Made by a program: the position numbers and the translations under genes. From Aquimarina acroporae (GTDB lineage: Bacteria > Bacteroidota > Bacteroidia > Flavobacteriales > Flavobacteriaceae), in NCBI RefSeq assembly GCF_023195925.1, contig NZ_JALPRE010000007.1, positions 372,001 to 436,000 on the forward strand: a DNA stretch of 64,000 nucleotides, read 5' to 3'. Of this stretch, positions 51,377-63,212 are shown in pieces (within the stretch, counting starts at the first letter, position 1; every line of letters starts with the position of its first letter). The notes beneath the pieces were generated by a model, which ran no database searches, had not been told where the DNA came from, and saw only the letters and a program-made list of their open reading frames with translations.

Positions 51377-52222
51377 TTAATAAAATTGTTGAGAAACGGT
51401 ATGGTTCTTTCCATAGTTATTATCCCAATACTCTTGACCGTTTACTCTATACACCACAGCATACTCAACGGTACTCACAGATTTATCGAACCGAACAGAA
51501 CCCGACCAGCGCTCTATATCAAATTGATTTGGACTTGACACAAAAACAAAAGGTCCACTATTCCAAAATGAACGATAACTAAGCGGAAAATAGCTTTGCG
51601 TCTGCCATCCATCTGTAGTATATACCACTCCTACTTCTTTGGTAGGGCCTAAATTTCTAACATCTACCACTACATTCATTTGGTTTTGATCGTAGAAAGA
51701 AGCGTAGAAAATGCTATCAAAATCGGTATCTACACTCACATTACTTGTTGGATCTGCAAAGAAGAATCCATCATTGGTAGTCATTGTATAGTTTGCTCCT
51801 TCGTTATTATCCCAATAGGTCTGTCCGTTCACTTCATATTTTACTACAAATTCATCGGCATACACAGGAGCAAGGCCAAAGCCTCCAACATTATATTGCC
51901 CGGTCCAGATTTCATTTTGATCATCGATATCAAAACTATACGCTAACGGGATTTCTTCCCAACTGCCATCTACTTTTTCATGAAAGATACTTACACTTTT
52001 ATCAAAATCAAGATCGGCAACTTGCACGGTAAACTTTCCTAAATAACCAGTATAGCCTCTATAGGTTCCTGATGAAGTCCAGGATTTTACCAAATGTACG
52101 GGAGAGGAATTTTTAACGATCACCTCTTCCTTTTCAAAGGTATTCTGGTTTTCAATAAAGTCATCTTCGGTAGCACACGAAAAGATAACCAGACTTAGTA
52201 ATAAATAAACAAATTTTCTCAT
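51377..52222 (-). CDS. Lipoprotein with two CBM21-like domains
   Basis: 281 residues. Lipoprotein signal KFVYLLLSLVIFSCATEDDF, then two copies of a domain of about 105 residues. Each copy has a KxxVxVxxLDFDKSV strand, an Asp-rich exposed turn, and ends with the CBM21 hallmark VNGQxYWDNNxGxNY: VNGQTYWDNNEGANY in the first and VNGQEYWDNNYGKNH in the second. CBM21 binds starch or glycogen and is best known from eukaryotic amylases and glycogen-targeting phosphatase subunits. The protein has no catalytic domain, so it is probably a surface polysaccharide-binding lipoprotein. A paralogue is encoded 24 bases upstream. Confidence 0.85.
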   Translation of the reverse strand: MRKFVYLLLSLVIFSCATEDDFIENQNTFEKEEVIVKNSSPVHLVKSWTSSGTYRGYTGYLGKFTVQVADLDFDKSVSIFHEKVDGSWEEIPLAYSFDIDDQNEIWTGQYNVGGFGLAPVYADEFVVKYEVNGQTYWDNNEGANYTMTTNDGFFFADPTSNVSVDTDFDSIFYASFYDQNQMNVVVDVRNLGPTKEVGVVYTTDGWQTQSYFPLSYRSFWNSGPFVFVSSPNQFDIERWSGSVRFDKSVSTVEYAVVYRVNGQEYWDNNYGKNHTVSQQFY

Positions 52223-52246
52223 GGGTTGGTTTTAAAAAGTTAATAT

Positions 52247-53062
52247 TTAATATGTTGAATTGTTTATGATATAGTTCTTTCCATAGTTATTGTCCCAATA
52301 CTCCTGACCATTGACTTTATATACTACAGCATACTCTACACTACTAATATCAGGGTCAAATCGAACCGAGGTTTCCCATTTATCGATATCAAATTGATTT
52401 GGACTTTGTATATAATGCGCATATCCCACTCTAAAATATCGCTGGTAACTCAATGATGCTCTATTGGTAGTTGCCCAACCGTCTGTAGAGTAAACGATTT
52501 CAACAGCACCCACAGCACCATAATTCCTTCTGGCGTCTACATTAATATTGAAATAAGTACCGGCAAAACGAGTGTAGTACTTATCTACCGAAATTTCGAT
52601 TTCTGGTGCTAAGTATGCCCCTATATTGACAAGCATGCTGTAATTGTCCCCATTGTTATTATCCCAATACGTCTGCCCATCTACCGTATATTTTATTACA
52701 AACTCATCGCTATAAATTTCGGTATCGGGTTCTACCTCTCCTACCCAGATTTCTTCATCATTATCAATGCTCTGTTCATATCGCAAAGGAATATCTACCC
52801 AATTACCGGCGTAAGTAGCATGGTGTATAGCCACCTCTTTTTGAAAAGCAAGGTTTTTTACTTTTACTTCAAATCGTCTTACATATTTACGCCTTACCGG
52901 ACTGCTACCATTCGAGGTCCAAGCCCTAAGCAATGTTACATTTTCTGAACTGTTTTTTGCTGCTAACTCAATAGATGTGTTGGTAGCATCTGTTATTTCG
53001 GTATCCTGTTTACAAGAATACAACCCTAACACTACGACTAGTACTAAATAAATTTTTTTCAT
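52247..53062 (-). CDS. Lipoprotein with two CBM21-like domains, paralogue of the neighbour
   Basis: 271 residues from the ATG at 53062, which gives the lipoprotein signal KKIYLVLVVVLGLYSCKQD; a longer frame adds 43 residues without similarity. Two CBM21-like domains: VKVKNLAFQKEVAIHHA to VDGQTYWDNNNGDNY, and WATTNRASLSYQR to VNGQEYWDNNYGKNY. The last 60 residues are nearly identical in plan to those of the gene at 51377 (QSPNQFDIDKW, VRFDPDISSVEYAVVYKVNG), so the two arose by duplication. It is likely the first gene of a two-gene minus-strand operon. Confidence 0.85.
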   Translation of the reverse strand: MKKIYLVLVVVLGLYSCKQDTEITDATNTSIELAAKNSSENVTLLRAWTSNGSSPVRRKYVRRFEVKVKNLAFQKEVAIHHATYAGNWVDIPLRYEQSIDNDEEIWVGEVEPDTEIYSDEFVIKYTVDGQTYWDNNNGDNYSMLVNIGAYLAPEIEISVDKYYTRFAGTYFNINVDARRNYGAVGAVEIVYSTDGWATTNRASLSYQRYFRVGYAHYIQSPNQFDIDKWETSVRFDPDISSVEYAVVYKVNGQEYWDNNYGKNYIINNSTY

Positions 53063-53369: not shown

Positions 53370-53425
53370 TTACGAAAACCTTTGCTTAGAAGTTTTATGA
53401 AAAGTTGTATAAGCGTTTTTCGTAA
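53370..53425. other. Long hairpin in the gap before the AraC gene
   Basis: The 540-base gap 53063-53602 holds, besides the motif at 53160, a nested hairpin: TTACGAAAA (53370-53378) pairs with TTTTCGTAA (53417-53425), and inside it GCTTA (53384-53388) with TAAGC (53410-53414). A basic 73-residue open frame at 53455-53676 overlaps the AraC gene start and does not look like a protein. The rest is AT-rich. Confidence 0.5.
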
Positions 53426-53602
53426 TCGAAATCTAATATTTAGTATGTCAAATTTTGCAAAAAAATATTCTAAAACGTGTATTAATAGTTTGTTGCGTTA
53501 AAAAAAACACTAAAACAAAACTAAAAAAGCTTTCTAATTTTAATGTCTTGTTAAAAGTTTATTGTAGAGGTAACAAATCTTTTCAGGTTTACATACTTAA
53601 GT

Positions 53603-54418
53603 ATGCAACTAAAAAAAATAGAAAGTTCTTTTATACAAAAAAGAACCGCCGAAGGTTTAGAAATATTATCTATTAAGGGACAATCACATTCATTTCCTTT
53701 ACATTTTCGCAATACATTTTGCATCTCATTAATAGTATCTGGAACAAGATTAATAAAAATGAAAAATCGGGAAATTCTAATCCCTTCAAATCACATCTCA
53801 ATAATTAATCCTTACGAAGTACATTCCAGTTTTTTTTATCCCTCTGCTATAGATTTTCACACCTTATATGTAGATACAAAAAGAATAGCGCACCACTCTA
53901 AATTACAACCATTTTTTCATAATGATCCTATCTACGATTCTCATTTAAACAATGTTTTTTTAGCGATTATTAAAACTGCACAGAGCAAAAACAATATTGC
54001 ATTCCATAAAATAACAAACCATTTTTTAGATATTTTAGTTAGCCTTAAAAAATATCATTCTACAGATAGCAGTAACATATTTACCTCCCCATGGAAAAAT
54101 GTTCAACACTACATCAACCAAAATCTAAAAAACCATATTAATATCACTGACCTTGCAGCTATTGCAGGTATTAACAAATACAACTTCGCTAAGCAGTTCA
54201 AAGGTAAGTCTGGAATGTCACCAATGCACTACATTATTATGAGAAAAATTTTTGAAGCTAAGAGAAAGATTTCTGCTTCGACACATCTTTCTGAATTGGC
54301 TTATGATTATAATTTTACAGATATCGCTCATTTCTCCAAACATTTCAAAAGGTTTATAGGTATATCTCCCAGAAAATACCAAAGAGGAATTTTGCAAACA
54401 CCAAGATTATACAAGTAA
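53603..54418 (+). CDS. AraC-family regulator at the head of the RiPP locus
   Basis: 271 residues. N-terminal cupin-like sensing domain at about 30-110 (HFRNTFCISLIVSGTRLIKM, LIPSNHISIINPYEVHSSFF), then a C-terminal AraC double helix-turn-helix from about 170 (VQHYINQNLKNHINITDLAAIAGINKYNFAKQFKGKSGMSPMHYI, LSELAYDYNFTDIAHFSKHFKRFIGISPRKYQRG). The sequence FTDIAHFSKHFKRFIGISPRKYQ is the classical second helix-turn-helix signature. It is encoded 57 bases before the first precursor gene on the same strand and may activate the locus in response to a ligand. Confidence 0.92.
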   Translation: MQLKKIESSFIQKRTAEGLEILSIKGQSHSFPLHFRNTFCISLIVSGTRLIKMKNREILIPSNHISIINPYEVHSSFFYPSAIDFHTLYVDTKRIAHHSKLQPFFHNDPIYDSHLNNVFLAIIKTAQSKNNIAFHKITNHFLDILVSLKKYHSTDSSNIFTSPWKNVQHYINQNLKNHINITDLAAIAGINKYNFAKQFKGKSGMSPMHYIIMRKIFEAKRKISASTHLSELAYDYNFTDIAHFSKHFKRFIGISPRKYQRGILQTPRLYK

Positions 54419-54475
54419 CTATCATTTTTTATGATTTTCTTTAAAGGAAATAAGTCTAATTTAAATCTTTTTAAA

Positions 54476-54634
54476 ATGAAAAAAGAGCAAAAATCTATCG
54501 ATGCTTTACTAAAAAACCTCGAAAACCAGAAAGAAGCCGTAAAAATTAGTGAAGACGGAAAAACCACACAATACTGGTGCGGTACTGGTGCAAACGCTGC
54601 CGATGAACTTGCTGGACATCCTCCAAAATCTTAA
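54476..54634 (+). CDS. RiPP precursor peptide 1 (Ala variant)
   Basis: 52 residues: leader MKKEQKSIDALLKNLENQK, a middle part EAVKISEDGKTTQYWCGTG, and a C-terminal part ANAADELAGHPPKS. The leader and the KTTQYWCGTG block are shared by all five copies. Here residues 39, 41 and 42 are alanine where the others have serine, and the tail is longer, with PPKS at the end. The start is the ATG of the shared MKKEQKSID; an earlier in-frame start at 54431 would add 15 residues not found in the other copies. No double-glycine cleavage site is present. It is the first of five adjacent copies, 28 bases before the next. Confidence 0.85.
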   Translation: MKKEQKSIDALLKNLENQKEAVKISEDGKTTQYWCGTGANAADELAGHPPKS

Positions 54635-54662
54635 AAAAATTATCCTCTAAAATTATGTATAC

Positions 54663-54812
54663 ATGAAAAAAGAGCAAAAATCGATCGATGTTTTACTAAA
54701 AAACTTAGAAAACCAAAGAGAAGCTATAAAAATCAGTGAAGACGGAAAAACCACTCAATACTGGTGCGGCACGGGTTCACAATCTTCAGATGAATTAGGA
54801 AGTCACCCATAA
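54663..54812 (+). CDS. RiPP precursor peptide 2
   Basis: 49 residues, too short for ordinary gene calling but in frame with its copies. Leader MKKEQKSIDVLLKNLENQR, block KTTQYWCGTG at 29-38, and tail SQSSDELGSHP. Compared with copy 1 it has serines at 39, 41 and 42 and lacks the PPKS end. It shares V at residue 10 and the ending of copy 4 and is separated from copy 3 by a spacer closely related to that between copies 4 and 5. Confidence 0.9.
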   Translation: MKKEQKSIDVLLKNLENQREAIKISEDGKTTQYWCGTGSQSSDELGSHP

Positions 54813-54875
54813 ATACTCTCTTACTTATCATTTATTTCACTAAAAACAAATTGTTTAATCTAAATACTCTGTAAC

Positions 54876-55037
54876 ATGAAAAAAGAACAAAAATCGATCG
54901 ATGCTTTACTAAAAAACCTCGAAACTCAAAAAGACGCGGTAAAAATTAGTGAAGACGGAAAAACCACTCAATACTGGTGTGGTACAGGAAGTAATTCTAG
55001 TGATGAAATTGGAGGTCACCCACCTCAAGGATCATAG
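54876..55037 (+). CDS. RiPP precursor peptide 3
   Basis: 53 residues, the longest copy. Leader MKKEQKSIDALLKNLETQK, block KTTQYWCGTG, and tail SNSSDEIGGHPPQGS. The leader with ETQKDAVKISEDG is identical to that of copy 5. It is the only copy with a double glycine near the end (EIGGHPP), which is too far downstream for leader removal. Another reading frame over this stretch (54949 to 55227) is an artefact that runs into copy 4. Confidence 0.9.
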   Translation: MKKEQKSIDALLKNLETQKDAVKISEDGKTTQYWCGTGSNSSDEIGGHPPQGS

Positions 55038-55077
55038 TGAATTAAATAATAACATATTAACTCTAAAATTCATATCC

Positions 55078-55227
55078 ATGAAAAAAGAACAAAAATCTAT
55101 CGATGTTCTACTAAAAAACCTCGACAACCAAAAAGGAGCCGTAAAAGTAGATGAAAATGGAAAAACTACCCAATACTGGTGTGGCACAGGAAGTAACTCT
55201 AGTGATGAACTTGGTAGTTACCCGTGA
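55078..55227 (+). CDS. RiPP precursor peptide 4
   Basis: 49 residues. Leader MKKEQKSIDVLLKNLDNQK, then GAVKVDENG, the most divergent middle of the five, followed by KTTQYWCGTG and tail SNSSDELGSYP. The change from SEDG to DENG and K-G at 20-21 marks it as older or faster evolving than copies 3 and 5. The 3' spacer is nearly identical to that after copy 2. Confidence 0.9.
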   Translation: MKKEQKSIDVLLKNLDNQKGAVKVDENGKTTQYWCGTGSNSSDELGSYP

Positions 55228-55291
55228 TTAATCTCCCTACCTAAGATTTACTTTACCAAAAACAAATTGTTTAATCTTAATACTCTGTAAT

Positions 55292-55441
55292 ATGAAAAAA
55301 GAACAAAAATCTATCGATGCTTTACTAAAAAACCTCGAAACCCAAAAAGACGCGGTAAAAATTAGTGAAGACGGAAAAACCACTCAATACTGGTGTGGTA
55401 CAGGAAGTAACTCTAGTGACGACATTGGTAGTTACCCGTGA
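55292..55441 (+). CDS. RiPP precursor peptide 5
   Basis: 49 residues. Leader identical to copy 3, block KTTQYWCGTG, and tail SNSSDDIGSYP, in which residue 44 is Asp instead of Glu. It is preceded by a spacer of about 37 bases nearly identical to that before copy 3 (AACAAATTGTTTAATCT shared), which shows a block duplication of two genes. An attenuator-like hairpin follows, then the ligase gene. Confidence 0.9.
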   Translation: MKKEQKSIDALLKNLETQKDAVKISEDGKTTQYWCGTGSNSSDDIGSYP

Positions 55442-55464
55442 TTTATTTCTTTAAACCTAATATG

Positions 55465-55499
55465 AAAGAGCTACTATGGCCTAACTATAGTGGCTCTTT
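55465..55499 (+). terminator. Attenuator-like hairpin between precursors and modification genes
   Basis: AAAGAGCTACTAT (55465-55477) pairs with 55487-55499 over a nine-base loop, 13 pairs with one G-T, and ends in TTTT before CTAATTC. The T tract is short, so partial termination is likely. This would give more precursor than enzyme transcripts. Confidence 0.75.
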
Positions 55500-55519
55500 T
55501 CTAATTCAAACCTTACCAA

Positions 55520-56548
55520 ATGCATTTACTTTTTTCTGAAGAGGTTGATTTTTCTACCAATAGAGTAATAGACTGGTTATACTATAATGACGAGAAGTAT
55601 GAAAAACACATAGACCATAACAAAGCACAAAAAGATCATTTCAATTTTGAAGATAAAACTATCGCTGTTTCTTTTGGAGGAAACATTACAGATCCAATAT
55701 TTAAAGTAAACGATATCAAGGATCCTGTAGATATAAATTCTACATGGTTTAGAAGACCCACCATAAACTCTAAAACGTTATCGCCAGAAAAGCAAAATTT
55801 CGGGGTTTACCCCAAAGAATATCTTGAATACTCTAACCAAAAGAGAATGAGGACCTTTTGGGACTTTTTATGCTATAACTTACAAAAAACAAAAAAACTT
55901 GGGTCCTACGAGATCGTAGACCTTAACAAACCCATAATTCTAAAAAAAGCACAAGAACATAATTTAACCATCCCTAAAACTTTAATAACAAACTCCATTG
56001 ACGAATTGCGAAACTTTTTTAACCTATGCAATCAAAAAATCATAACTAAATCGCTAGGTTCGGTAATTCCCGAATATAAACATCAGGTTAATCACCCAAA
56101 GGATCATTACTTATCGTTTTATCAATTAACCAAATTAATCGACAATATAGATACTGCGCCAAAAAAATTCGCACCATCCTTATTTCAAGAATGTATTGAT
56201 AAAGAATACGAAATAAGAAGTATTTATTTAAATGGCGAATTATATTCTGCCTGTATATTTAGTCAACTCAATGAACAAACTAAAGTTGACATGAGAAATC
56301 GCCCAGCTAATCATCCTACACGTTATATTCCGTATCAATTAAATCAAGCTATTGAAAGCAGTATAACTTCCTTAATGCAAGAACTTACTTTAGATTATGG
56401 GGCTATAGATATTATTAAAGGCATAGACGGCCAATATTATTTTCTTGAAATTAACCCCGTTGGACAATACGGAGATGTATCGTTGCAATGTAACTACTAC
56501 CTTAATAAAAAAATCGCCGAATATTTAATTAATAATTCTAATGATTGA
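55520..56548 (+). CDS. gwsG: ATP-grasp peptide ligase of grasp-with-spasm type
   Basis: 342 residues. Such ligases join Asp/Glu side chains of a precursor to Ser/Thr or Lys through ester or amide bonds. The N-terminal part fits the pre-ATP-grasp domain of MvdC/MvdD relatives (HLLFSEEVDFSTNRVIDWLY, STWFRRP). The ATP-grasp part runs from about 140 (IILKKAQEHNLTIPKTLITN, FQECIDKEYEIRSIYLNG) to the end with LDYGAIDIIKGIDGQYYFLEINPVGQYG, in which EINP provides the metal-binding acid and Asn and PVGQ is typical of the family. It follows the precursors by 78 bases and overlaps the next gene by eight bases. Confidence 0.93.
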   Translation: MHLLFSEEVDFSTNRVIDWLYYNDEKYEKHIDHNKAQKDHFNFEDKTIAVSFGGNITDPIFKVNDIKDPVDINSTWFRRPTINSKTLSPEKQNFGVYPKEYLEYSNQKRMRTFWDFLCYNLQKTKKLGSYEIVDLNKPIILKKAQEHNLTIPKTLITNSIDELRNFFNLCNQKIITKSLGSVIPEYKHQVNHPKDHYLSFYQLTKLIDNIDTAPKKFAPSLFQECIDKEYEIRSIYLNGELYSACIFSQLNEQTKVDMRNRPANHPTRYIPYQLNQAIESSITSLMQELTLDYGAIDIIKGIDGQYYFLEINPVGQYGDVSLQCNYYLNKKIAEYLINNSND

Positions 56549-56747
56549 TCAATCAAATAAATACAAAGATTTAATTCAAATACCAGAAGATGAATCTATT
56601 CCTTTTGACATGCATTACATCTGTGTTTCAGAAAAGAAAACGAGTAATCTCGAAGAGAAATTTGTGTATATGAAAAAATACAGGGCTCTTGGAAGTATAA
56701 CAGATTTTTACAAAAAAAATTCTAATATCATAGATATAGACTCATGA
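56541..56747 (+). CDS. 68-residue unknown protein between gwsG and gwsS
   Basis: Not recognised. It starts with MIDQSNKYKDLIQIPEDESIPFDMHYICVSEKK and is acidic in the first half and basic in the second (FVYMKKYRALGSITDFYKKN). It has no membrane segment or signal. Its start overlaps the gwsG stop by eight bases and its stop overlaps the gwsS start by four (ATGA), so it is translated in step with both maturases. It could be an adaptor that binds the leader or joins the enzymes, or a sixth substrate; there is no direct evidence. Confidence 0.75.
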   Translation: MIDQSNKYKDLIQIPEDESIPFDMHYICVSEKKTSNLEEKFVYMKKYRALGSITDFYKKNSNIIDIDS

Positions 56748-57763
56748 GTACCGCATTAAAAGAAACCTATTTTTTATTATTTCCTACATGTATCCCAGTT
56801 CGAGGACACGCCAATAGTTTAATCATGGATTTGGACAATGGAGCATTTATTGAAATTCCTAATTTACTACAAGAGATATTATCAAGTGATTTAAAAAATA
56901 ACACAATACAGCAAATAAAATCTATATTCAAAAACAAATATGACGAAGGTATTGATAACTATTTTCAATACTTAGCAAATAATGAATATGGATTTTTCAC
57001 ACAAAATCCTGCTCCTTTTCAAAAACCCGAACAAATTTTTTATTCTCCTTTCAAAGTAATTTCGTCGATTTTGGAATATGATCAATCAAGCGCATATGAT
57101 ATCGCAGACGTTCTATCGCAACTTGAAACCCTTTCTTGTCAAATTATACAAATAAGATTATATGATTTCATAGCAATATCTCAATTATCAAAATTACTTG
57201 ACAATATTAAAGAGAGTGATATAAGGATTATAGAAATTATGATTCCGATGAATGAGCAATTAGTTCTTGAAGAGCTAAAGCTATTTATGATAAATTACCC
57301 AAGAGTAAGACTAATTATCTACAACAGTCAATCAAAAAAACGAGTAGTAATTTCTGAAAACCCAAAACGAGAAATAGTTTATAGTGAGCATAATCTAAAT
57401 AAGGGTTCTAAGGAAATTTACTCCATTAAATCTTTTACTATAAACCATCAAATGTATTATGAAGCACTACAGTATAATACGGGATTACATAGAAAAGTAT
57501 GTATAGATACCGAAGGAAATATTAAAAACTATCTATCACATAAAAAATCTTACGGAAATACAATTCAAGACAGGATTGAAGATGTAATTAACCAAAATGA
57601 TTTTCAAAAAAAATATCATATTCATAATGATATGATTGAAAAATGTAAAGATTGTCAATTTAGATATATGTGTTTGAGCAATTCAGATGTCAAATTCTCC
57701 AATAATAGCCATCATAAGATACAATCTTGCAATTTTGACCCTTATACCAATAGTTGGAACTAA
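56744..57763 (+). CDS. gwsS: SPASM-domain peptide maturase without radical SAM motif
   Basis: 339 residues. The C-terminal SPASM motif is clear: EKCKDCQFRYMCLSN, with CxxCxxxxxC, and a further cysteine in KIQSCNFDPYTNSW, which bind an iron-sulfur cluster in relatives. The first two thirds have the length and the strand-helix rhythm of a radical SAM barrel, but no CxxxCxxC is present; the only cysteine near the start is in FPTCIPVRG. This is the state of the grasp-with-spasm partner family. Its role may be precursor recognition and delivery to the ligase. ATGA overlap upstream; the exporter gene follows after eight bases. Confidence 0.9.
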   Translation: MSTALKETYFLLFPTCIPVRGHANSLIMDLDNGAFIEIPNLLQEILSSDLKNNTIQQIKSIFKNKYDEGIDNYFQYLANNEYGFFTQNPAPFQKPEQIFYSPFKVISSILEYDQSSAYDIADVLSQLETLSCQIIQIRLYDFIAISQLSKLLDNIKESDIRIIEIMIPMNEQLVLEELKLFMINYPRVRLIIYNSQSKKRVVISENPKREIVYSEHNLNKGSKEIYSIKSFTINHQMYYEALQYNTGLHRKVCIDTEGNIKNYLSHKKSYGNTIQDRIEDVINQNDFQKKYHIHNDMIEKCKDCQFRYMCLSNSDVKFSNNSHHKIQSCNFDPYTNSWN

Positions 57764-57771
57764 ATTCATGT

Positions 57772-59964
57772 ATGCGAAAAAAATTCAAACACTACAAGCA
57801 GCCAAATACAATGGACTGTGGCGCTACTTGCCTAAGAATGATAGCAAAACATTATGGTGTTCATATATCTCTTGAACAGTTAAACAAGCTTGTAGAAACA
57901 ACTAGAGAAGGTATAAATTTCGAAATGCTAAGTCATGCCGCAGATACTATAGGCTTTAGAACAATTGGGCTTCAAATTGACGCTATTACATTATTTAATG
58001 ATGCTCCTCTACCATGTGTAGTTACTTGGAATCATAACCATTTTGTAATTGTATATAAGATTAAAAAAGATAAGATTTATATCGCCGATCCTGCTTTGGA
58101 TTTACTCACATATACTAAGAAAGAATTTATACAAAACTGGATCGGAAATACAGCCACTGAAAATACAAAAGATGGCTTAGTAATGCTCTTTGAGCCTACT
58201 CCAAAACTACATAATTCTAACTATGACCAACCCGTAAAGCAAGATTTTAAACATATATTTAAATATCTTACGATACACAAAAAATTCTTACTGCAATTGG
58301 TAATCGGTGTAATAGCAGGCAGTGTGTTAAATTTACTTTTTCCTTTTCTAACACAAAGTATTGTAGATGTTGGAATAAGAAACAATGATCTCAATTATAT
58401 TTATCTAATTCTACTCGCTCAAATATTTCTATTTCTTGGTAAAGTAAGTATAGATATTTTAAGAGGTTGGATTTTACTCCATCTAAGTACCAGAATAAAT
58501 ATTTCCCTGGTTTCGGATTTTTTTATAAAATTAATGAATCTACCTATTTCATATTTTGATACTAAGGTTACGGGAGATATATTAGAACGTGTTGGTGATC
58601 ATAAAAGGATAGAAAATTTACTCACTAATTCACCCTTGTCCATATTTCTTGCATTTGTAAACATTATCGTTTTTGGGATTGTTTTAGCCCTTTATAGCTT
58701 TAATATATTTTTTATATATGCCTTTGGAAGTTTATTTTATTTTTTGTGGATATCAATTTTTATTAGAAAAAGAAGGATAATTGACATGCATCAGTTTCAA
58801 CTAATTGGAGAAGAAAAAACCAAAATTATTGAACTTATAAATGGGATGCAGGAAATTAAACTATTGAATGCTGAAAAAGAAAAAAGATGGGGCTGGGAAT
58901 TTATAAAAGCCAGGTTGTTTAGACTAGAAATAAAAAAACTTTCTCTTGAACAACTTTTAAATATAGGCTCCCTAGTTATTAACGAGTTAAAGAACATTAT
59001 TATCATCTATGTAGCATCCAGATTGGTTATTCAAGGAGATATTACCTTGGGGATGATGCTATCAATCATGTATATTATTGGTCAGCTTAACGGGCCTCTC
59101 AAAGAGATTCTTAAAATTAGTTATTCTATACAAGATGCCAAAATAAGTATTGAAAGACTAAATGAGGTTCACAAGTTAAATAGCGAGTATAGTTCAGATG
59201 ATGATACCCGGGAATTGTTTAATATCAATGAAAACATCAACATTCACAATTTATCCTTTAATTATCCAGGAAGAAAAAACAATGTTCTCAGTAATATAAA
59301 CCTAACAATTCCTGCAAACAAAACTACAGCTATTGTTGGAGCAAGTGGCAGTGGTAAAACCACATTAATAAAATTACTACTAAAATTTTACTCACCTAAG
59401 GAAGGTTATATTAGTTTAAACAAATTAAATCTAAAGAATATATCACAAAAAAAATGGCGAAGTAATCTAAGTGTTGTTATGCAAGAGGGTTACATATTTA
59501 ATGACACCATTGCTCGAAACATTACTTTGGGTCAAGGAAAAATTGACAAAAAGAGACTTTTACAAGCTGTAGAAATTGCAAACATAAAAGAGTTTATTGA
59601 AAGGCTTCCTCAAACATACAACACAAAAATTGGCAATGATGGTATAGGAATTAGTGGTGGCGAAAAGCAAAGAATACTCATTGCAAGATCTGTTTACAAA
59701 AATCCCTCTTTAATGTTTTTCGACGAGGCGACGAGTGCTCTGGATGCCAATAATGAAAAGAAAATAACCGAAAACCTTAATCATTTTTTTAAAAACAAAA
59801 CGGTAGTTATTATTGCTCATAGATTAAGTACAGTAAAGAATGCTGATCAAATCATAGTATTAGAGGAAGGACAAATTGTTGAGACAGGAAATCATCATGA
59901 ATTGAGTAAGAAAAAAGGAAAGTATTACAATCTAGTAAAAAACCAGCTAGAACTTGGTTCATAG
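57772..59964 (+). CDS. C39 peptidase-containing ABC exporter
   Basis: 730 residues from the ATG at 57772; a TTG at 57754 lies before the gwsS stop and was not chosen. N-terminal C39 peptidase at about 1-140: QPNTMDCGATCLRMIAKHYG with the catalytic Cys16 and the oxyanion Gln10, and CVVTWNHNHFVIVY, IYIADPA with the His and Asp. About six membrane segments follow (about 170-430). The ATPase has Walker A VGASGSGKTTLIKLL at about 522, signature SGGEKQRILIARS, Walker B LMFFDEATSALD and the H-loop IIAHRLSTV. It exports and, if it follows the family, removes leaders; but the precursors lack the usual double glycine. Confidence 0.95.
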   Translation: MRKKFKHYKQPNTMDCGATCLRMIAKHYGVHISLEQLNKLVETTREGINFEMLSHAADTIGFRTIGLQIDAITLFNDAPLPCVVTWNHNHFVIVYKIKKDKIYIADPALDLLTYTKKEFIQNWIGNTATENTKDGLVMLFEPTPKLHNSNYDQPVKQDFKHIFKYLTIHKKFLLQLVIGVIAGSVLNLLFPFLTQSIVDVGIRNNDLNYIYLILLAQIFLFLGKVSIDILRGWILLHLSTRINISLVSDFFIKLMNLPISYFDTKVTGDILERVGDHKRIENLLTNSPLSIFLAFVNIIVFGIVLALYSFNIFFIYAFGSLFYFLWISIFIRKRRIIDMHQFQLIGEEKTKIIELINGMQEIKLLNAEKEKRWGWEFIKARLFRLEIKKLSLEQLLNIGSLVINELKNIIIIYVASRLVIQGDITLGMMLSIMYIIGQLNGPLKEILKISYSIQDAKISIERLNEVHKLNSEYSSDDDTRELFNINENINIHNLSFNYPGRKNNVLSNINLTIPANKTTAIVGASGSGKTTLIKLLLKFYSPKEGYISLNKLNLKNISQKKWRSNLSVVMQEGYIFNDTIARNITLGQGKIDKKRLLQAVEIANIKEFIERLPQTYNTKIGNDGIGISGGEKQRILIARSVYKNPSLMFFDEATSALDANNEKKITENLNHFFKNKTVVIIAHRLSTVKNADQIIVLEEGQIVETGNHHELSKKKGKYYNLVKNQLELGS

Positions 59965-60117
59965 ATTAGAAAAAGCAAATAAACTTCTTCAGATCATTTA
60001 TCATAACTGATTCTATTTCATTTCATTAGAAAATCACCTGTTTTTAAAAAGAAATAGAAACAACTTTTAGAAGGACTTATCGACAATATTCAAAAGAGTC
60101 AAATCACTTTTTTGATT

Positions 60118-60159
60118 AGGGGTATTTACCCCTTTATAAAGAGAGTGAATTCCCGTAAA
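60118..60159 (+). promoter_or_regulatory. AGGGGTA-TT-TACCCCT palindrome with ACGG motif, upstream of 60299
   Basis: AGGGGTATTTACCCCT at 60118-60133 is a perfect 16-base palindrome made of two TACCCCT heptamers, similar to sites of NarL-type regulators. Eight bases on, 60142-60159 reads AGAGTGAATTCCCGTAAA, whose complement resembles ATTACGGAWWTCCTTACT. It lies about 165 bases before the gene at 60299, head of the operon that encodes a NarL-type response regulator. The rest of the 334-base gap holds a hairpin at 60185. Confidence 0.6.
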
Positions 60160-60184: not shown

Positions 60185-60225
60185 TTTTGTTATCAAAAGA
60201 TTGCATCTTTTGCATTTTAACAAAA
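60185..60225 (+). promoter_or_regulatory. Nested hairpin in the leader of the 60299 operon
   Basis: TTTTGTTA (60185-60192) pairs perfectly with TAACAAAA (60218-60225), and within it CAAAAGA (60194-60200) with TCTTTTG (60206-60212) around a five-base loop. A 75-base distance to the start codon fits a leader RNA element. Confidence 0.5.
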
Positions 60226-60298: not shown

Positions 60299-61006
60299 AT
60301 GAAAAACCGAGTTAACAACCTTATAGGTTATCCTATTGTAGCTATTCTAGCTGCACTGATAACTTATTTTTACACCAAAAACGATCCTGTTACCCAACCC
60401 GATCCGGATCCTACAACACCAGAAGAAATCATTTCTTTTAAAGATGCAGTGCAATTGTACCGCAGTTATTCAAAAAATCGCGCTTGTATTATAAAAGCTT
60501 TTGAGGGAAGGGATAGCTTGATCACTAAGCTATGTCCAACAGATAGAAAAGCAAATCCAGAATTCATGCCATCCAGATCTTTTCTTTTAAAGGATACTTT
60601 TTTGGAAGAATACATTGCATATGTAAAGTCAATAACACCGGATTCGGTAAAAATCACGGGATATCGATTGTATTTAGGAAATTACCCAGATGCTGATAAA
60701 TTTGTTGATGGTAAACCAATTCCAGACCCTAGGAGAAATACCTTCTTTATTGCACCCACCACTCGTTCTGAAAGAGATGGTATTCACAAAGGATATACAT
60801 TTCTAGATCGAAATAACGACGGAAAGCCAGAGCTAATATTCCTTGAAGACATCATCGATGAATTACGCCCAGATGGTCTTGGAAATCTTAATCAAGTACA
60901 ACAATCAAAAATTAATACTGCAAGTTTCTTTTCATTCTCCTCCGCTTTACAAGGTGGTGAAAACAGTACACTTGCTAACGAAATTGGAGGATCTCCACCA
61001 TATTAA
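60299..61006 (+). CDS. Membrane-anchored protein of unknown function
   Basis: 235 residues, not recognised. One hydrophobic segment near the start (IGYPIVAILAALITYFYTK), a proline/aspartate linker (DPVTQPDPDPTTPEE), and then a globular part (ISFKDAVQLYRSYSKNRACI, LEEYIAYVKSITPDSVKITGYRLYLGNYPD, TRSERDGIHKGYTFLDRNNDGKPEL). The C-terminus is ALQGGENSTLANEIGGSPPY, where GG is followed by a stretch resembling the tail of precursor 3 (EIGGHPP). The likeness may be chance. It is followed 22 bases later by a polytopic membrane protein and the two-component genes, and I infer a common operon. Confidence 0.65.
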   Translation: MKNRVNNLIGYPIVAILAALITYFYTKNDPVTQPDPDPTTPEEIISFKDAVQLYRSYSKNRACIIKAFEGRDSLITKLCPTDRKANPEFMPSRSFLLKDTFLEEYIAYVKSITPDSVKITGYRLYLGNYPDADKFVDGKPIPDPRRNTFFIAPTTRSERDGIHKGYTFLDRNNDGKPELIFLEDIIDELRPDGLGNLNQVQQSKINTASFFSFSSALQGGENSTLANEIGGSPPY

Positions 61007-61028: not shown

Positions 61029-61685
61029 GTGAAAAGAGAATTGTTAATAGGAATAGGAAACTTTGGAATTTTCATAGAGTTAGTCGCAGCAGTTATTGCT
61101 TCTATTTATTTTTATAAATACAAAAAAACTTTTTTAAAATTCTTTTGCTTTCTGCTTTGGTATACAGTAATTAACGATATCTCTGGTGTTTTAATAAGAG
61201 AATATGTTTCAAGACACAATGCAATAATTTATAATATATATTACTGTATTATTTTTACGTATTTATTTTTATTATATAGGCATTATATTAAGAACATTAA
61301 ACACAAGAAACTTCTTCTTTTATTTATGTTCTTTTATTATATAATTTTGATTATAAATGGTTTCTTTGAAAACTATATGATAGAATTTCAAAGTCTACCC
61401 TATATAGCTGCTGCAACATTTATTGTAATTAGCATAAGTATTTATTTTGTAGAGATTTTGAATACTGAAAAAGTTTTATACGTTAAAAAAAATCTTTTAT
61501 TCTGGATTAGTGTAGGTCTTTTATTATACTATATTGGTAATATCCCTTTTAGAATTCTAAGAAATTATTATGAATATCTTACAGATGCTACAATTCTGGT
61601 TCTTTTAAACATTATTCTAGCGGTAATTATGAACATCTGTTTTATTATAGGCTTTATATGGAGCGACAGGAAACAGCTATATTAA
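61029..61685 (+). CDS. Polytopic membrane protein, possible signal sensor
   Basis: 218 residues with a GTG start. About seven hydrophobic segments fill it (FGIFIELVAAVIASIYFY, FLKFFCFLLWYTVIN, IIYNIYYCIIFTYLFLLY, LLLLFMFFYYIILIING, YIAAATFIVISISIYFVEIL, LLFWISVGLLLYYIGNI, ATILVLLNIILAVIMNICFIIGFIW), with short loops. Its end overlaps the start of the kinase gene by 28 bases. Stand-alone membrane parts of this kind may act as sensor for a kinase that has only one membrane helix; here that is inference. Confidence 0.75.
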   Translation: MKRELLIGIGNFGIFIELVAAVIASIYFYKYKKTFLKFFCFLLWYTVINDISGVLIREYVSRHNAIIYNIYYCIIFTYLFLLYRHYIKNIKHKKLLLLFMFFYYIILIINGFFENYMIEFQSLPYIAAATFIVISISIYFVEILNTEKVLYVKKNLLFWISVGLLLYYIGNIPFRILRNYYEYLTDATILVLLNIILAVIMNICFIIGFIWSDRKQLY

Positions 61686-62452
61686 TAGCAAGTATTGTAT
61701 TAATAGTAATTATCATAATAATGATTTTTCTTTTCACCATTTTCCAGAAAAGGAAAAACAGCTTGTTATTGCATCAAAAAGAAGCCGAGAAAAAGTTTGA
61801 AAAGGCTATTGCCGAAACACAAATTGAGATACGGGAAGAAACCCTACGCAATATAAGTTGGGAGTTACATGATAATATTGGCCAGCTACTCACGCTGGCC
61901 AAAATTCAAGTGAATGTAGCACAAGATGACCCCGAGAAGCTGCAAGAAGTAACAGATACTATTACCAAAAGTCTTACCGAGCTTAGATCACTATCAAAAC
62001 TCATTAACCCCGATGCGATAAAAAGTCTAAGTCTTACCGAGGCAATTACTCTGGAAATAGAACGATTTAATCGTCTTCAATTCATTAAAGCTACCTTAAC
62101 CAACAACCAGGAGGTACGAGATATGGATGATAAAGTGGAAATCATTATATTTAGAATATTACAGGAGTTTTTCACCAACACCATAAAACATTCTAAAGCC
62201 TCAAACCTTGAAGTTAATGTACACTACGACGAAAACAAATTAGTCATTAATGCAAAAGACGATGGTGTAGGCTTTAATATGAATATCAACAATTCTAAAC
62301 AAGGTATTGGGCTTGGAAACATACAAAGTAGAGGCAAGTTGATCGATGCCGAGGTCACTTTAAACTCTGAGGAAGGAAAAGGAACAGCTATTATGCTTAC
62401 CTATTACTATGACAAGAAAAATTTAACTGCATTAGATGATATCATCGATTAA
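61658..62452 (+). CDS. NarL-type sensor histidine kinase
   Basis: 264 residues. One membrane helix (ILIASIVLIVIIIIMIFLFTIF), a coiled region, then the HisKA_3 phosphoacceptor ELHDNIGQLLTLAKIQVN with the phosphorylated His71, and the ATPase domain (ILQEFFTNTIKHSKASNLEV, DDGVGFNM, GIGLGNIQSRGKLIDA). Signal input must come from a partner because no sensor domain is present; the overlapping membrane protein is the likely one. The response regulator follows 121 bases later. Confidence 0.92.
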   Translation: MERQETAILIASIVLIVIIIIMIFLFTIFQKRKNSLLLHQKEAEKKFEKAIAETQIEIREETLRNISWELHDNIGQLLTLAKIQVNVAQDDPEKLQEVTDTITKSLTELRSLSKLINPDAIKSLSLTEAITLEIERFNRLQFIKATLTNNQEVRDMDDKVEIIIFRILQEFFTNTIKHSKASNLEVNVHYDENKLVINAKDDGVGFNMNINNSKQGIGLGNIQSRGKLIDAEVTLNSEEGKGTAIMLTYYYDKKNLTALDDIID

Positions 62453-62573: not shown

Positions 62574-63212
62574 ATGAAATATTCAGTAGTCATTGTAGAA
62601 GATCATATCTTATTATCACAAGCATTATCTGGTCTTGTAAATGGATTTGATAAATTTAAGATATTATATATCTGTAAAAATGGAAAAGAACTACTAACCC
62701 GTTTTAAGGATCCAAAAAATATTCCCGATGTAGTGCTTATGGATATCAATATGCCTATCATGAATGGCATAGAAACTACCGCTGCACTCAAAGAACAATA
62801 CCCACATGTAAAGGTGCTCGCACTTTCTGTTGAGGAAGACGAAAATACCATCCTCAAAATGTTGAGAGCCGGTGCCAAAGGATATCTGCTTAAAGATACC
62901 GAAAAAAGCATTTTAGAAAATGCTCTTGTACAAGTTCAGGAAACTGGTTTCTACCACACCAAAGATGTAACCAATCTTTTGCTGGGTTCGCTCAATCCTA
63001 AACAGGAGAAAAGTGTTATGTTAAAAGATAGAGAGCTAGAATTCATTAAGCATGCCTGCACAGAAAAAACGTATAAGGAGATTGCCAATGACATGTGTCT
63101 AAGTCCAAAAACAATAGAAGGATACAGAGATTCTATTTTCGAAAAATTGAGTCTTAAAAACAGAACAGGATTGGTAATTTATGCTATCAAAAACAAAATA
63201 TTTGTGCCTTAG
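62574..63212 (+). CDS. NarL/FixJ-type (LuxR) response regulator
   Basis: 212 residues. Receiver with IVEDHILL, phospho-acceptor Asp57 in VVLMDINMPIMNG, the Ser in LALSVEED and the Lys in YLLKDTE. The C-terminal LuxR helix-turn-helix reads LKDRELEFIKHACTEKTYKEIANDMCLSPKTIEGYRDSIFEKLSLKNRTGLVIYAIKN. It is the cognate partner of the kinase upstream. The AGGGGTA-TT-TACCCCT palindrome in front of the operon is a plausible binding site, since this fold is known to bind heptamer pairs of such form. Confidence 0.93.
   Translation: MKYSVVIVEDHILLSQALSGLVNGFDKFKILYICKNGKELLTRFKDPKNIPDVVLMDINMPIMNGIETTAALKEQYPHVKVLALSVEEDENTILKMLRAGAKGYLLKDTEKSILENALVQVQETGFYHTKDVTNLLLGSLNPKQEKSVMLKDRELEFIKHACTEKTYKEIANDMCLSPKTIEGYRDSIFEKLSLKNRTGLVIYAIKNKIFVP

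Follow-up and report, generated by a model that had tools for sequence, protein, structure and literature searches.

In the interpretation toward which we lean slightly, the five tandem peptide genes of this Aquimarina acroporae locus encode divergent grasp-with-spasm graspetide precursors whose tails would imitate the C-terminal tail of a neighboring protein, here called TAILP. TAILP belongs to a polymorphic module that continues with a hydrophobic protein (MEMB), a histidine kinase (HK) and a response regulator (RR). The variable tail that the precursors have in common with TAILP is the informative part of these peptides, and it was absent from an earlier sequence-only reading of the same DNA. 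Coordinates below refer to the whole 64,000-nt stretch that was analyzed (the window).

53404..60088, + strand: gws cassette, 6.7 kb, bounds taken from three relatives in which the site is empty (right bound accurate to about 125 nt)
53603..54418, + strand: AraC-type regulator, first cassette gene (PF12833, PF02311)
54476..54634, + strand: precursor 1, 52 aa, tail DELAGHPPKS (54602-54631)
54663..54812, + strand: precursor 2, 49 aa, tail DELGSHP-stop (54789-54809)
54876..55037, + strand: precursor 3, 53 aa, tail DEIGGHPPQGS (55002-55034)
55078..55227, + strand: precursor 4, 49 aa, tail DELGSYP-stop (55204-55224)
55292..55441, + strand: precursor 5, 49 aa, tail DDIGSYP-stop (55418-55438)
55520..56548, + strand: GwsG, ATP-grasp peptide ligase (TIGR04192, 235.4 bits, cut-off 230)
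56541..56747, + strand: 68-aa protein between GwsG and GwsS, in the LPL-family position (homologs likewise placed in L033-L036)
56744..57763, + strand: GwsS, SPASM protein without CxxxCxxC (TIGR04193, 187.8 bits, cut-off 175)
57754..59964, + strand: peptidase-C39 ABC exporter (PF03412, E 2.8e-33; PF00664, PF00005)
60119..60132, strand unassigned: dyad GGGGTATTTACCCC, 180 nt before TAILP
60299..61006, + strand: TAILP, with a hydrophobic N-terminal segment; its C-terminus carries the tail ANEIGGSPPY (final codon ending at 61003), whose pattern is common to the precursors
61029..61685, + strand: MEMB, hydrophobic 218-aa protein, polymorphic and co-varying with the tail; proposed receptor
61658..62452, + strand: histidine kinase (PF07730, PF02518)
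62574..63212, + strand: LuxR-type response regulator (PF00072, PF00196)

A grasp-with-spasm locus with its own precursor family

The locus had been taken for a grasp-with-spasm system, and the scores of GwsG and GwsS listed above, both over their family cut-offs, bear this out. The five precursor open reading frames (ORFs) lie head to tail from 54476 to 55441, as the sequence-only reading described, and form a direct repeat with a period of about 200 nt. The block KTTQYWCGTG is identical in all five and contains their only cysteine. The leader is nearly invariant, as was also claimed, with MKKEQKSID, the block and some other positions identical in every copy. Precursor 1 has a further in-frame ATG upstream at 54431 (67 aa); we took the start at 54476 because it aligns with those of the other copies. 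The proposal of an undescribed precursor subfamily stands as far as our searches reached: the four precursors scanned, precursor 4 being outside the scan, matched no NCBIfam or Pfam family above cut-off (best E 0.1), and they gave no match to TIGR04139, TIGR04149 or PF14406 at E up to 1 with HMMER filters on.

Ten homologous peptides with the core GK[ST]xQYWCG occur in four other Aquimarina genomes, bringing the family to 15 precursors in the window, A. algiphila (L033), A. longa (L036) and two uncultured Aquimarina (637-3Z, L034; G348, L035). Lys, Ser/Thr and Asp are conserved in all 15. The family is present in 5 of 66 Aquimarina genomes, our own included, and in our own genome only among 397 drawn from Flavobacteriaceae. 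A contig scan with the five window peptides alone as query returned no match. The A. longa cassette consists of a precursor, a protein of the 68-aa type, GwsG and GwsS, with no exporter, AraC-type regulator or TAILP nearby; it is possibly decaying or relying on parts encoded elsewhere.

The precursors evolve unevenly along their length. Summed over the ten pairs of window copies, codon differences in the block are 36 synonymous and none non-synonymous (pS 0.568, pN 0.000), compared with pS 0.309 and pN 0.081 in the leader and pS 0.591 and pN 0.272 in the tail. The six G348 copies follow the same trend (pS/pN of 0.311/0.000 in the block, 0.191/0.064 in the leader and 0.548/0.198 in the tail). 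This pattern shows that the block is strongly selected at the protein level and that the tails are freer to vary. Recent duplication as the sole cause of the invariant block is ruled out by the contrast between a pS of 0.568 and a pN of zero.

The cassette as an insert beside a resident module

Comparison with relatives shows the cassette to be a discrete insert, next to a resident TAILP module. In blastn alignments with L091, L092 and L093, homology on the left stops at 53403 in all three and resumes on the right at 60214, 60089 and 60093, respectively; 59, 67 and 182 nt occupy the place of the cassette in these relatives. The G348 cassette likewise interrupts a region collinear with six relatives (L183-L188, and in part L189). 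It is flanked by a 193-bp direct repeat, 94% identical (L035:8014-8206 and L035:15088-15280), which duplicates the end of a host gene and offers a hint of how the cassette moves. No flanking direct repeat of this kind was found at the window site.

Homologs of the AraC-type regulator adjoin the cassette in L033 and L034; none was found beside it in L035 or L036. The dyad GGGTNTTTACCC was considered as a link between the window RR and the cassette. Its single match in the window lies before TAILP, and 55 of 100 shuffles contain one or more, so that regulation of the cassette by this RR is unproven. Dyads like GGGGTATTTACCCC lie 178-278 nt upstream of 17 of 30 genes for TAILP-L (the long form of TAILP, as in the window), a count without a chance control. 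Upstream of the cassette the window also carries two lipoprotein-like genes with CBM21 domains (51377-53059, - strand), and genes of this type occur upstream of TAILP in several cassette-less genomes as well. PADLOC identified no defense system among five proteins tested.

Modification and export proteins

Relatives of GwsG in the Protein Data Bank (PDB) include AMdnB (7m4s, E 1.4e-25) and CdnC (7mgv, E 4.1e-18). The 68-aa protein matches the LPL family in its position before GwsS and has homologs in four relatives, with no literal LPL. Small ORFs occupy this position in 13 of 14 other gws loci, with none listed in L039. By eye, 8 of 17 such small proteins (window 56541-56747 and L033-L050) have FYK near the C-terminus and the others have a similar pattern, which may help to define a family of proteins at the LPL position.

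GwsS is divergent, scoring 188 bits against 306-380 for the ten best members of its family and 122-140 for three others. The radical-SAM motif CxxxCxxC is absent from the first 150 residues of all 19 aligned homologs, as it is from window GwsS, making radical chemistry by this protein doubtful. Window GwsS keeps the SPASM cysteines; four further cysteines, held by 10-11 of the 19 homologs, are missing from the five Aquimarina proteins of its clade. Thioether formation by radical SAM chemistry has been suggested for such loci (PMC8939145, available text); for the window locus this is a weak candidate, given a GwsS without CxxxCxxC. A further modification of the block's Cys, Trp or Tyr, a possibility raised in the sequence-only reading, may occur, but the same lack of CxxxCxxC applies to it. 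The GwsS structure model (pLDDT 55.4, better in the middle part) gave weak TIM-barrel-like matches only, with nothing in the PDB below E 0.001, and the GwsS sequence returned nothing from the PDB except a chance match at E 0.25. A second gws locus in the same genome (L037; contig C3:1-12000) encodes GwsG, GwsS and a C39 exporter. Five cysteines present in the 18 other homologs, SPASM cysteines among them, are missing from this GwsS; no upstream precursor-like ORF is listed there.

How the leader might be removed bears on the earlier claim that the precursors lack a GG, GA or GS site. Taken literally this does not hold, as CGTG is followed by Ala in copy 1 and by Ser in copies 2-5 and a GG lies near the end of copy 3. 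In substance it nearly does, in that no candidate site tried stands in the register of C39 peptidases. That register is described as Val-4, Leu-7 and Leu-12 in the available text of PMC6363468, and this hydrophobic -4/-7/-12 pattern was absent from all five candidate sites that we tried among three members of the family. In seven comparison precursors, hand-picked from other grasp-with-spasm loci, GG with hydrophobic residues at -4 and -12 occurs in all seven and a hydrophobic residue at -7 in five. The GG motif is reported for most, not all, precursors of the related "branch 5" (PMC8939145, available text). Atypical cleavage, as the earlier reading proposed, is thus plausible from the sequences, with no candidate site tried fitting the C39 register.

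Precursor tails resemble the C-terminus of TAILP

Downstream of the exporter, after a gap of 334 nt, the order of the module is TAILP, MEMB, histidine kinase and LuxR-type regulator. TAILP ends in TLANEIGGSPPY, and the precursors end in DEIGGHPPQGS, DELAGHPPKS, DELGSHP, DELGSYP and DDIGSYP. TAILP has no Pfam or NCBIfam match above cut-off and its sequence no match in the PDB; the structure model (pLDDT 39.6) was unusable. TAILP was considered as a possible member of the "cluster 23" family of Makarova et al.; that family is described as having a conserved His and Arg (PMC8939145, available text), and TAILP has no invariant His. Homologs of TAILP are widespread, occurring in 180 of 299 genomes and 149 of 236 genera in a sample of Flavobacteriaceae. 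Of the 29 best loci after our own, 28 come from other genera and one is from Aquimarina; MEMB adjoins TAILP at all 29, and the tails, judged by eye, are relatives such as SLxLNEGGSxPPP. A segment resembling that of a lipoprotein or a membrane anchor opens many of these proteins (17 of 29 fit a crude lipobox expression), and a poorly conserved linker separates the TAILP domain from the tail. A phmmer search found no TAILP beside 15 other gws loci (L037-L051), some of which end at contig ends.

The resemblance of the tails was measured with a hidden Markov model (HMM) trained on 27 TAILP-L tails from loci without a cassette, including unlinked TAILPs of G348 (two) and G313 (one), genomes with a cassette elsewhere. 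It was applied to the C-termini of 2,695 ORFs of at least 28 aa (ATG starts only, nested frames included), 1,844 of them scored as non-TAILP ORFs. The six best of these are precursors, and 10 of the 15 precursors fall among the best 15. Shuffled versions of the final 12 residues reached the observed score in 0-2 of 200 trials for each of the eight precursors from the window, L033 and L034; two of the window tails and that of L034 have scores of only 4-6 bits. None of the small ORFs upstream of GwsG in 14 other gws loci (L037-L050) came within the best 15 non-TAILP ORFs.

One position differs consistently. All 15 precursors carry Asp where TAILP has Asn, the latter found by regular expression in 28 of 30 tails of TAILP-L and 28 of 30 of its short paralog, TAILP-S. 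This difference bears on the idea that the TAILP tail is itself a substrate of GwsG, making TAILP a large co-substrate of the cassette. The matching tails and adjacent genes would fit such a role. We nevertheless consider it highly improbable, because TAILP has Asn in place of the cross-linkable Asp, and because, of the 47 Aquimarina genomes out of 66 that have a TAILP homolog, only 5 also have precursors, with homologs spread across the family at the frequency given above.

The likeness between precursors and TAILP lies at the protein level. In eight pairs of matching stretches, 20 of 54 codons are identical, with 20.3 expected from codon use, and recent copying of tail DNA between TAILP and the precursors is therefore ruled out. 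Eight of the 15 precursors share at least six characters, the stop included, with the TAILP tail of another species, for example EIGGHPPQ, ELGSYP-stop, DIGSYP-stop and LGSHP-stop in the window, LGGSPPY in A. algiphila, and RGGTGHPP and GGSGFPPN in G348. When artificial tails are drawn from the columns of the precursors themselves, 0.21 (L) and 0.17 (S) of draws reach the observed mean shared length. Since such tails do about as well, exact sharing across species adds nothing beyond the motif, and we dropped it as a separate line of evidence.

Two tail dialects

Of the 66 Aquimarina genomes, 57 have a match to TAILP-S, which is about 130 aa long and typically ends in N-x-G-x-x-G-x-PP-x-x-Y; the weakest matches are to TAILP-L genes. 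The cassette of G348 adjoins a TAILP-S module, not a TAILP-L module. Among the tails of its six precursors are DRGGTGHPPN, DKGGSGFPPN and DHGNSGHPPND, the others being similar. A second HMM was trained on 30 short-TAILP tails, none from G348 and one of them a wrongly picked ORF (L173). With it the six G348 precursors take ranks 1-6 of 1,923 non-TAILP ORFs scored, and shuffles reach their scores in 0-1 of 200. All six score higher with the S than with the L model; the reverse is true of all eight from the window, A. algiphila and 637-3Z. By these scores, the dialect of the precursor tails matches that of the neighboring module, in two different modules. The dialects overlap: few shuffles reach the S-model scores of precursor 1 and of the two A. 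algiphila precursors (0, 1 and 2 of 200). The A. longa precursor fits neither (ranks 229 and 63) and was left out of the percentile, shuffle and artificial-tail analyses; L173 was left out of the percentile, Mantel and artificial-tail analyses.

Within a dialect, the precursors show no special relation to the TAILP of their own strain. The window strain and G348 each encode several tail types, and the five of the window do not include the type of their own TAILP (GGSPPY). For the 14 precursors with a local TAILP, that protein is a median match, with a mean percentile of 0.51, which does not support a pheromone tuned to self. Systematic self-avoidance is not supported either: if percentiles were uniform, a mean at or below the observed one would have a probability of 0.56 by score and 0.80 by longest shared stretch. 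With the own TAILP at the median, what stands is several types per strain and no proven preference for foreign ones.

TAILP-S proteins (L145-L149, L153-L182) have no visible signal or anchor, unlike TAILP-L; both forms have the tail and a MEMB neighbor. Because no export signal was seen by eye, the TAILP-S tail may be cytosolic, and it would then fit a periplasmic ligand poorly. The same observation suits an alternative that we regard as rather unlikely, in which the common tail serves as a tag for processing, sorting or degradation, read by one shared enzyme or protease that trims or holds the precursors, and has no role as a receptor ligand. A tail that looks cytosolic may act inside the cell, it is C-terminal in precursors and TAILP alike, and the related tail SLxLNEGGSxPPP recurs in TAILPs of other genera. 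A housekeeping tag, however, should be uniform, and this tail varies even among close relatives, in step with MEMB alleles, as described next.

TAILP tails co-vary with MEMB

Among the 15 closest of 30 TAILP-L genes, on which the L-module Mantel and tree analyses were run, five tail types occur (GGY, GGH, GGS, GSH and GSY). Tail distance correlates with MEMB distance (Mantel r 0.70, p 0.0002; partial 0.73, p 0.0002) and not with that of HK (r 0.02, p 0.37) or the TAILP body (r 0.10, p 0.14). The TAILP-S module (n = 29) gives the same picture, with r 0.38 (p 0.0002; partial 0.39, p 0.0002) for MEMB against -0.01 (p 0.50) for HK and -0.04 (p 0.63) for the body.

Trees of the L-module proteins agree. 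That of MEMB is largely sorted by tail type: the four GGY proteins group together (support 89), as do the two GSH (99) and four of five GSY (98), the fifth, L090 (GSYP), standing next to GSH plus GSY (82). The two GGS proteins are set apart from the rest (84), and the two GGH group with 48% support only. Trees of HK and the TAILP body are not sorted in this way; in the latter, L091 with L093 and L033 with L034 are paired at 100% despite differing tails. L091 and L093, with tails GGYPPN and GSYP, differ at 26 of 264 HK and 31 of 233 TAILP positions, and their MEMBs differ in 114 alignment columns, nine of which are gaps. Thirteen MEMB columns discriminate the tail types perfectly, and the best mutual information is reached in 1.3% of shuffles (69% for HK, which shows nothing). 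As such columns are expected from diverged allele groups, we do not count them as separate evidence. A TAILP column that scored 1.00 in this analysis is an artifact of trimming tails of unequal length.

Judged from these alignments, the co-variation is the pattern that a ligand-receptor pair exchanged between strains would leave. It could also reflect recombination linkage without binding, since the TAILP tail and MEMB adjoin (22 nt apart in the window). In that case tail and MEMB types would travel together through adjacency and recombination only, and the precursors would have inherited their copy of the tail and function as conventional graspetides, such as protease inhibitors or antibacterials. 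Protease inhibition is the activity of characterized graspetides (PMC8939145, available text). We think this explanation decidedly unlikely. Against it stand the co-variation in two modules, the match between precursor dialect and neighboring module, and codons that are not shared beyond chance. The diversity of the TAILP-S module is moreover concentrated in MEMB, with a mean distance of 0.52 compared with 0.20 for HK and 0.21 for the body (L module: 0.44 compared with 0.21 and 0.41).

A proposed mechanism

ATP-grasp peptide ligases activate side-chain carboxylates. We propose that GwsG would join Asp43 to either Lys29 or Ser/Thr30, all of them invariant positions (numbered as in the window peptides), closing a ring around QYWCG. 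Capping would render Asp43 neutral, as an Asn-like ester or amide that may resemble the Asn of TAILP. The C39 exporter would then release the ringed peptide to where the TAILP tail may be. MEMB would serve as a tail receptor common to TAILP and the peptide, and a soluble peptide that replaces or competes with the tethered TAILP tail would alter HK/RR signaling.

Because their tails resemble that of TAILP, which changes with MEMB in relatives, the peptides may speak to a recognition system or jam it. Interference with related strains, or eavesdropping on them, seems at least as likely as a self-signal, since the window strain encodes several tail types, none of them its own. In a broader scenario, which we put forward tentatively and with some doubt, a widespread Flavobacteriaceae kind-recognition system would combine the TAILP tail as ligand, MEMB as type-specific receptor and HK/RR as output. 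An inserted graspetide cassette would forge several soluble, cross-linked tail types, including those of other species, and so trigger or jam neighbors, with the ligase restoring the missing Asn by capping Asp.

Relation to known systems

Microviridin and chryseoviridin systems have ligases (MdnB/C, CdnC) related by sequence to GwsG. Their core sequence differs from the window precursors, and to our knowledge they have no SPASM partner. In staphylococcal agr, a polymorphic short ligand and an adjacent polymorphic membrane receptor change together, and the pneumococcal ComC/ComD "pherotype" system, as far as the available descriptions go, is alike in this. Co-variation of ligand and receptor type of the kind known from agr and Com was found here for the proposed pair in both modules. 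Unlike in those systems, the C-terminus of a 130-250-aa protein would here be the ligand and a separate membrane protein beside HK the receptor, and soluble, probably cross-linked look-alikes would come from an inserted RiPP cassette.

The locus most resembles the grasp-with-spasm "branch 5" loci (Makarova et al. 2022, PMC8939145). As described in the available text, these comprise an ATP-grasp ligase, a small protein directly before GwsS, a SPASM protein and a C39 ABC exporter, with tandem upstream precursors that contain a Cys. Relative to that description, the window precursors differ in lacking a canonical cleavage site and in having a TAILP-like tail, GwsS is divergent, and the locus adjoins a two-component module. 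Also among the closest systems is group 14 in the graspetide study of Carter et al. 2026 (PMC13097080), the available text of which mentions no tail mimicry. The available portions of both papers describe such loci by their genes, give no function or target for the products and mention no tail common with a signaling protein. Searches of the open literature found nothing relevant on a link between grasp-with-spasm precursors and the tail of a signaling protein.

If the proposed reading is true, the grasp-with-spasm product of the window would have a target, testable through the exchange of about ten residues, and would be a case of a RiPP that evolved as a molecular mimic of a neighboring signaling protein. 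It would also add to a large marine family a typed recognition system in which ligand and receptor alleles change together, of which open-literature searches showed none. Even without the function, the co-variation of tail and MEMB over two modules is a strong lead on the TAILP family, present in 149 of the 236 genera sampled.
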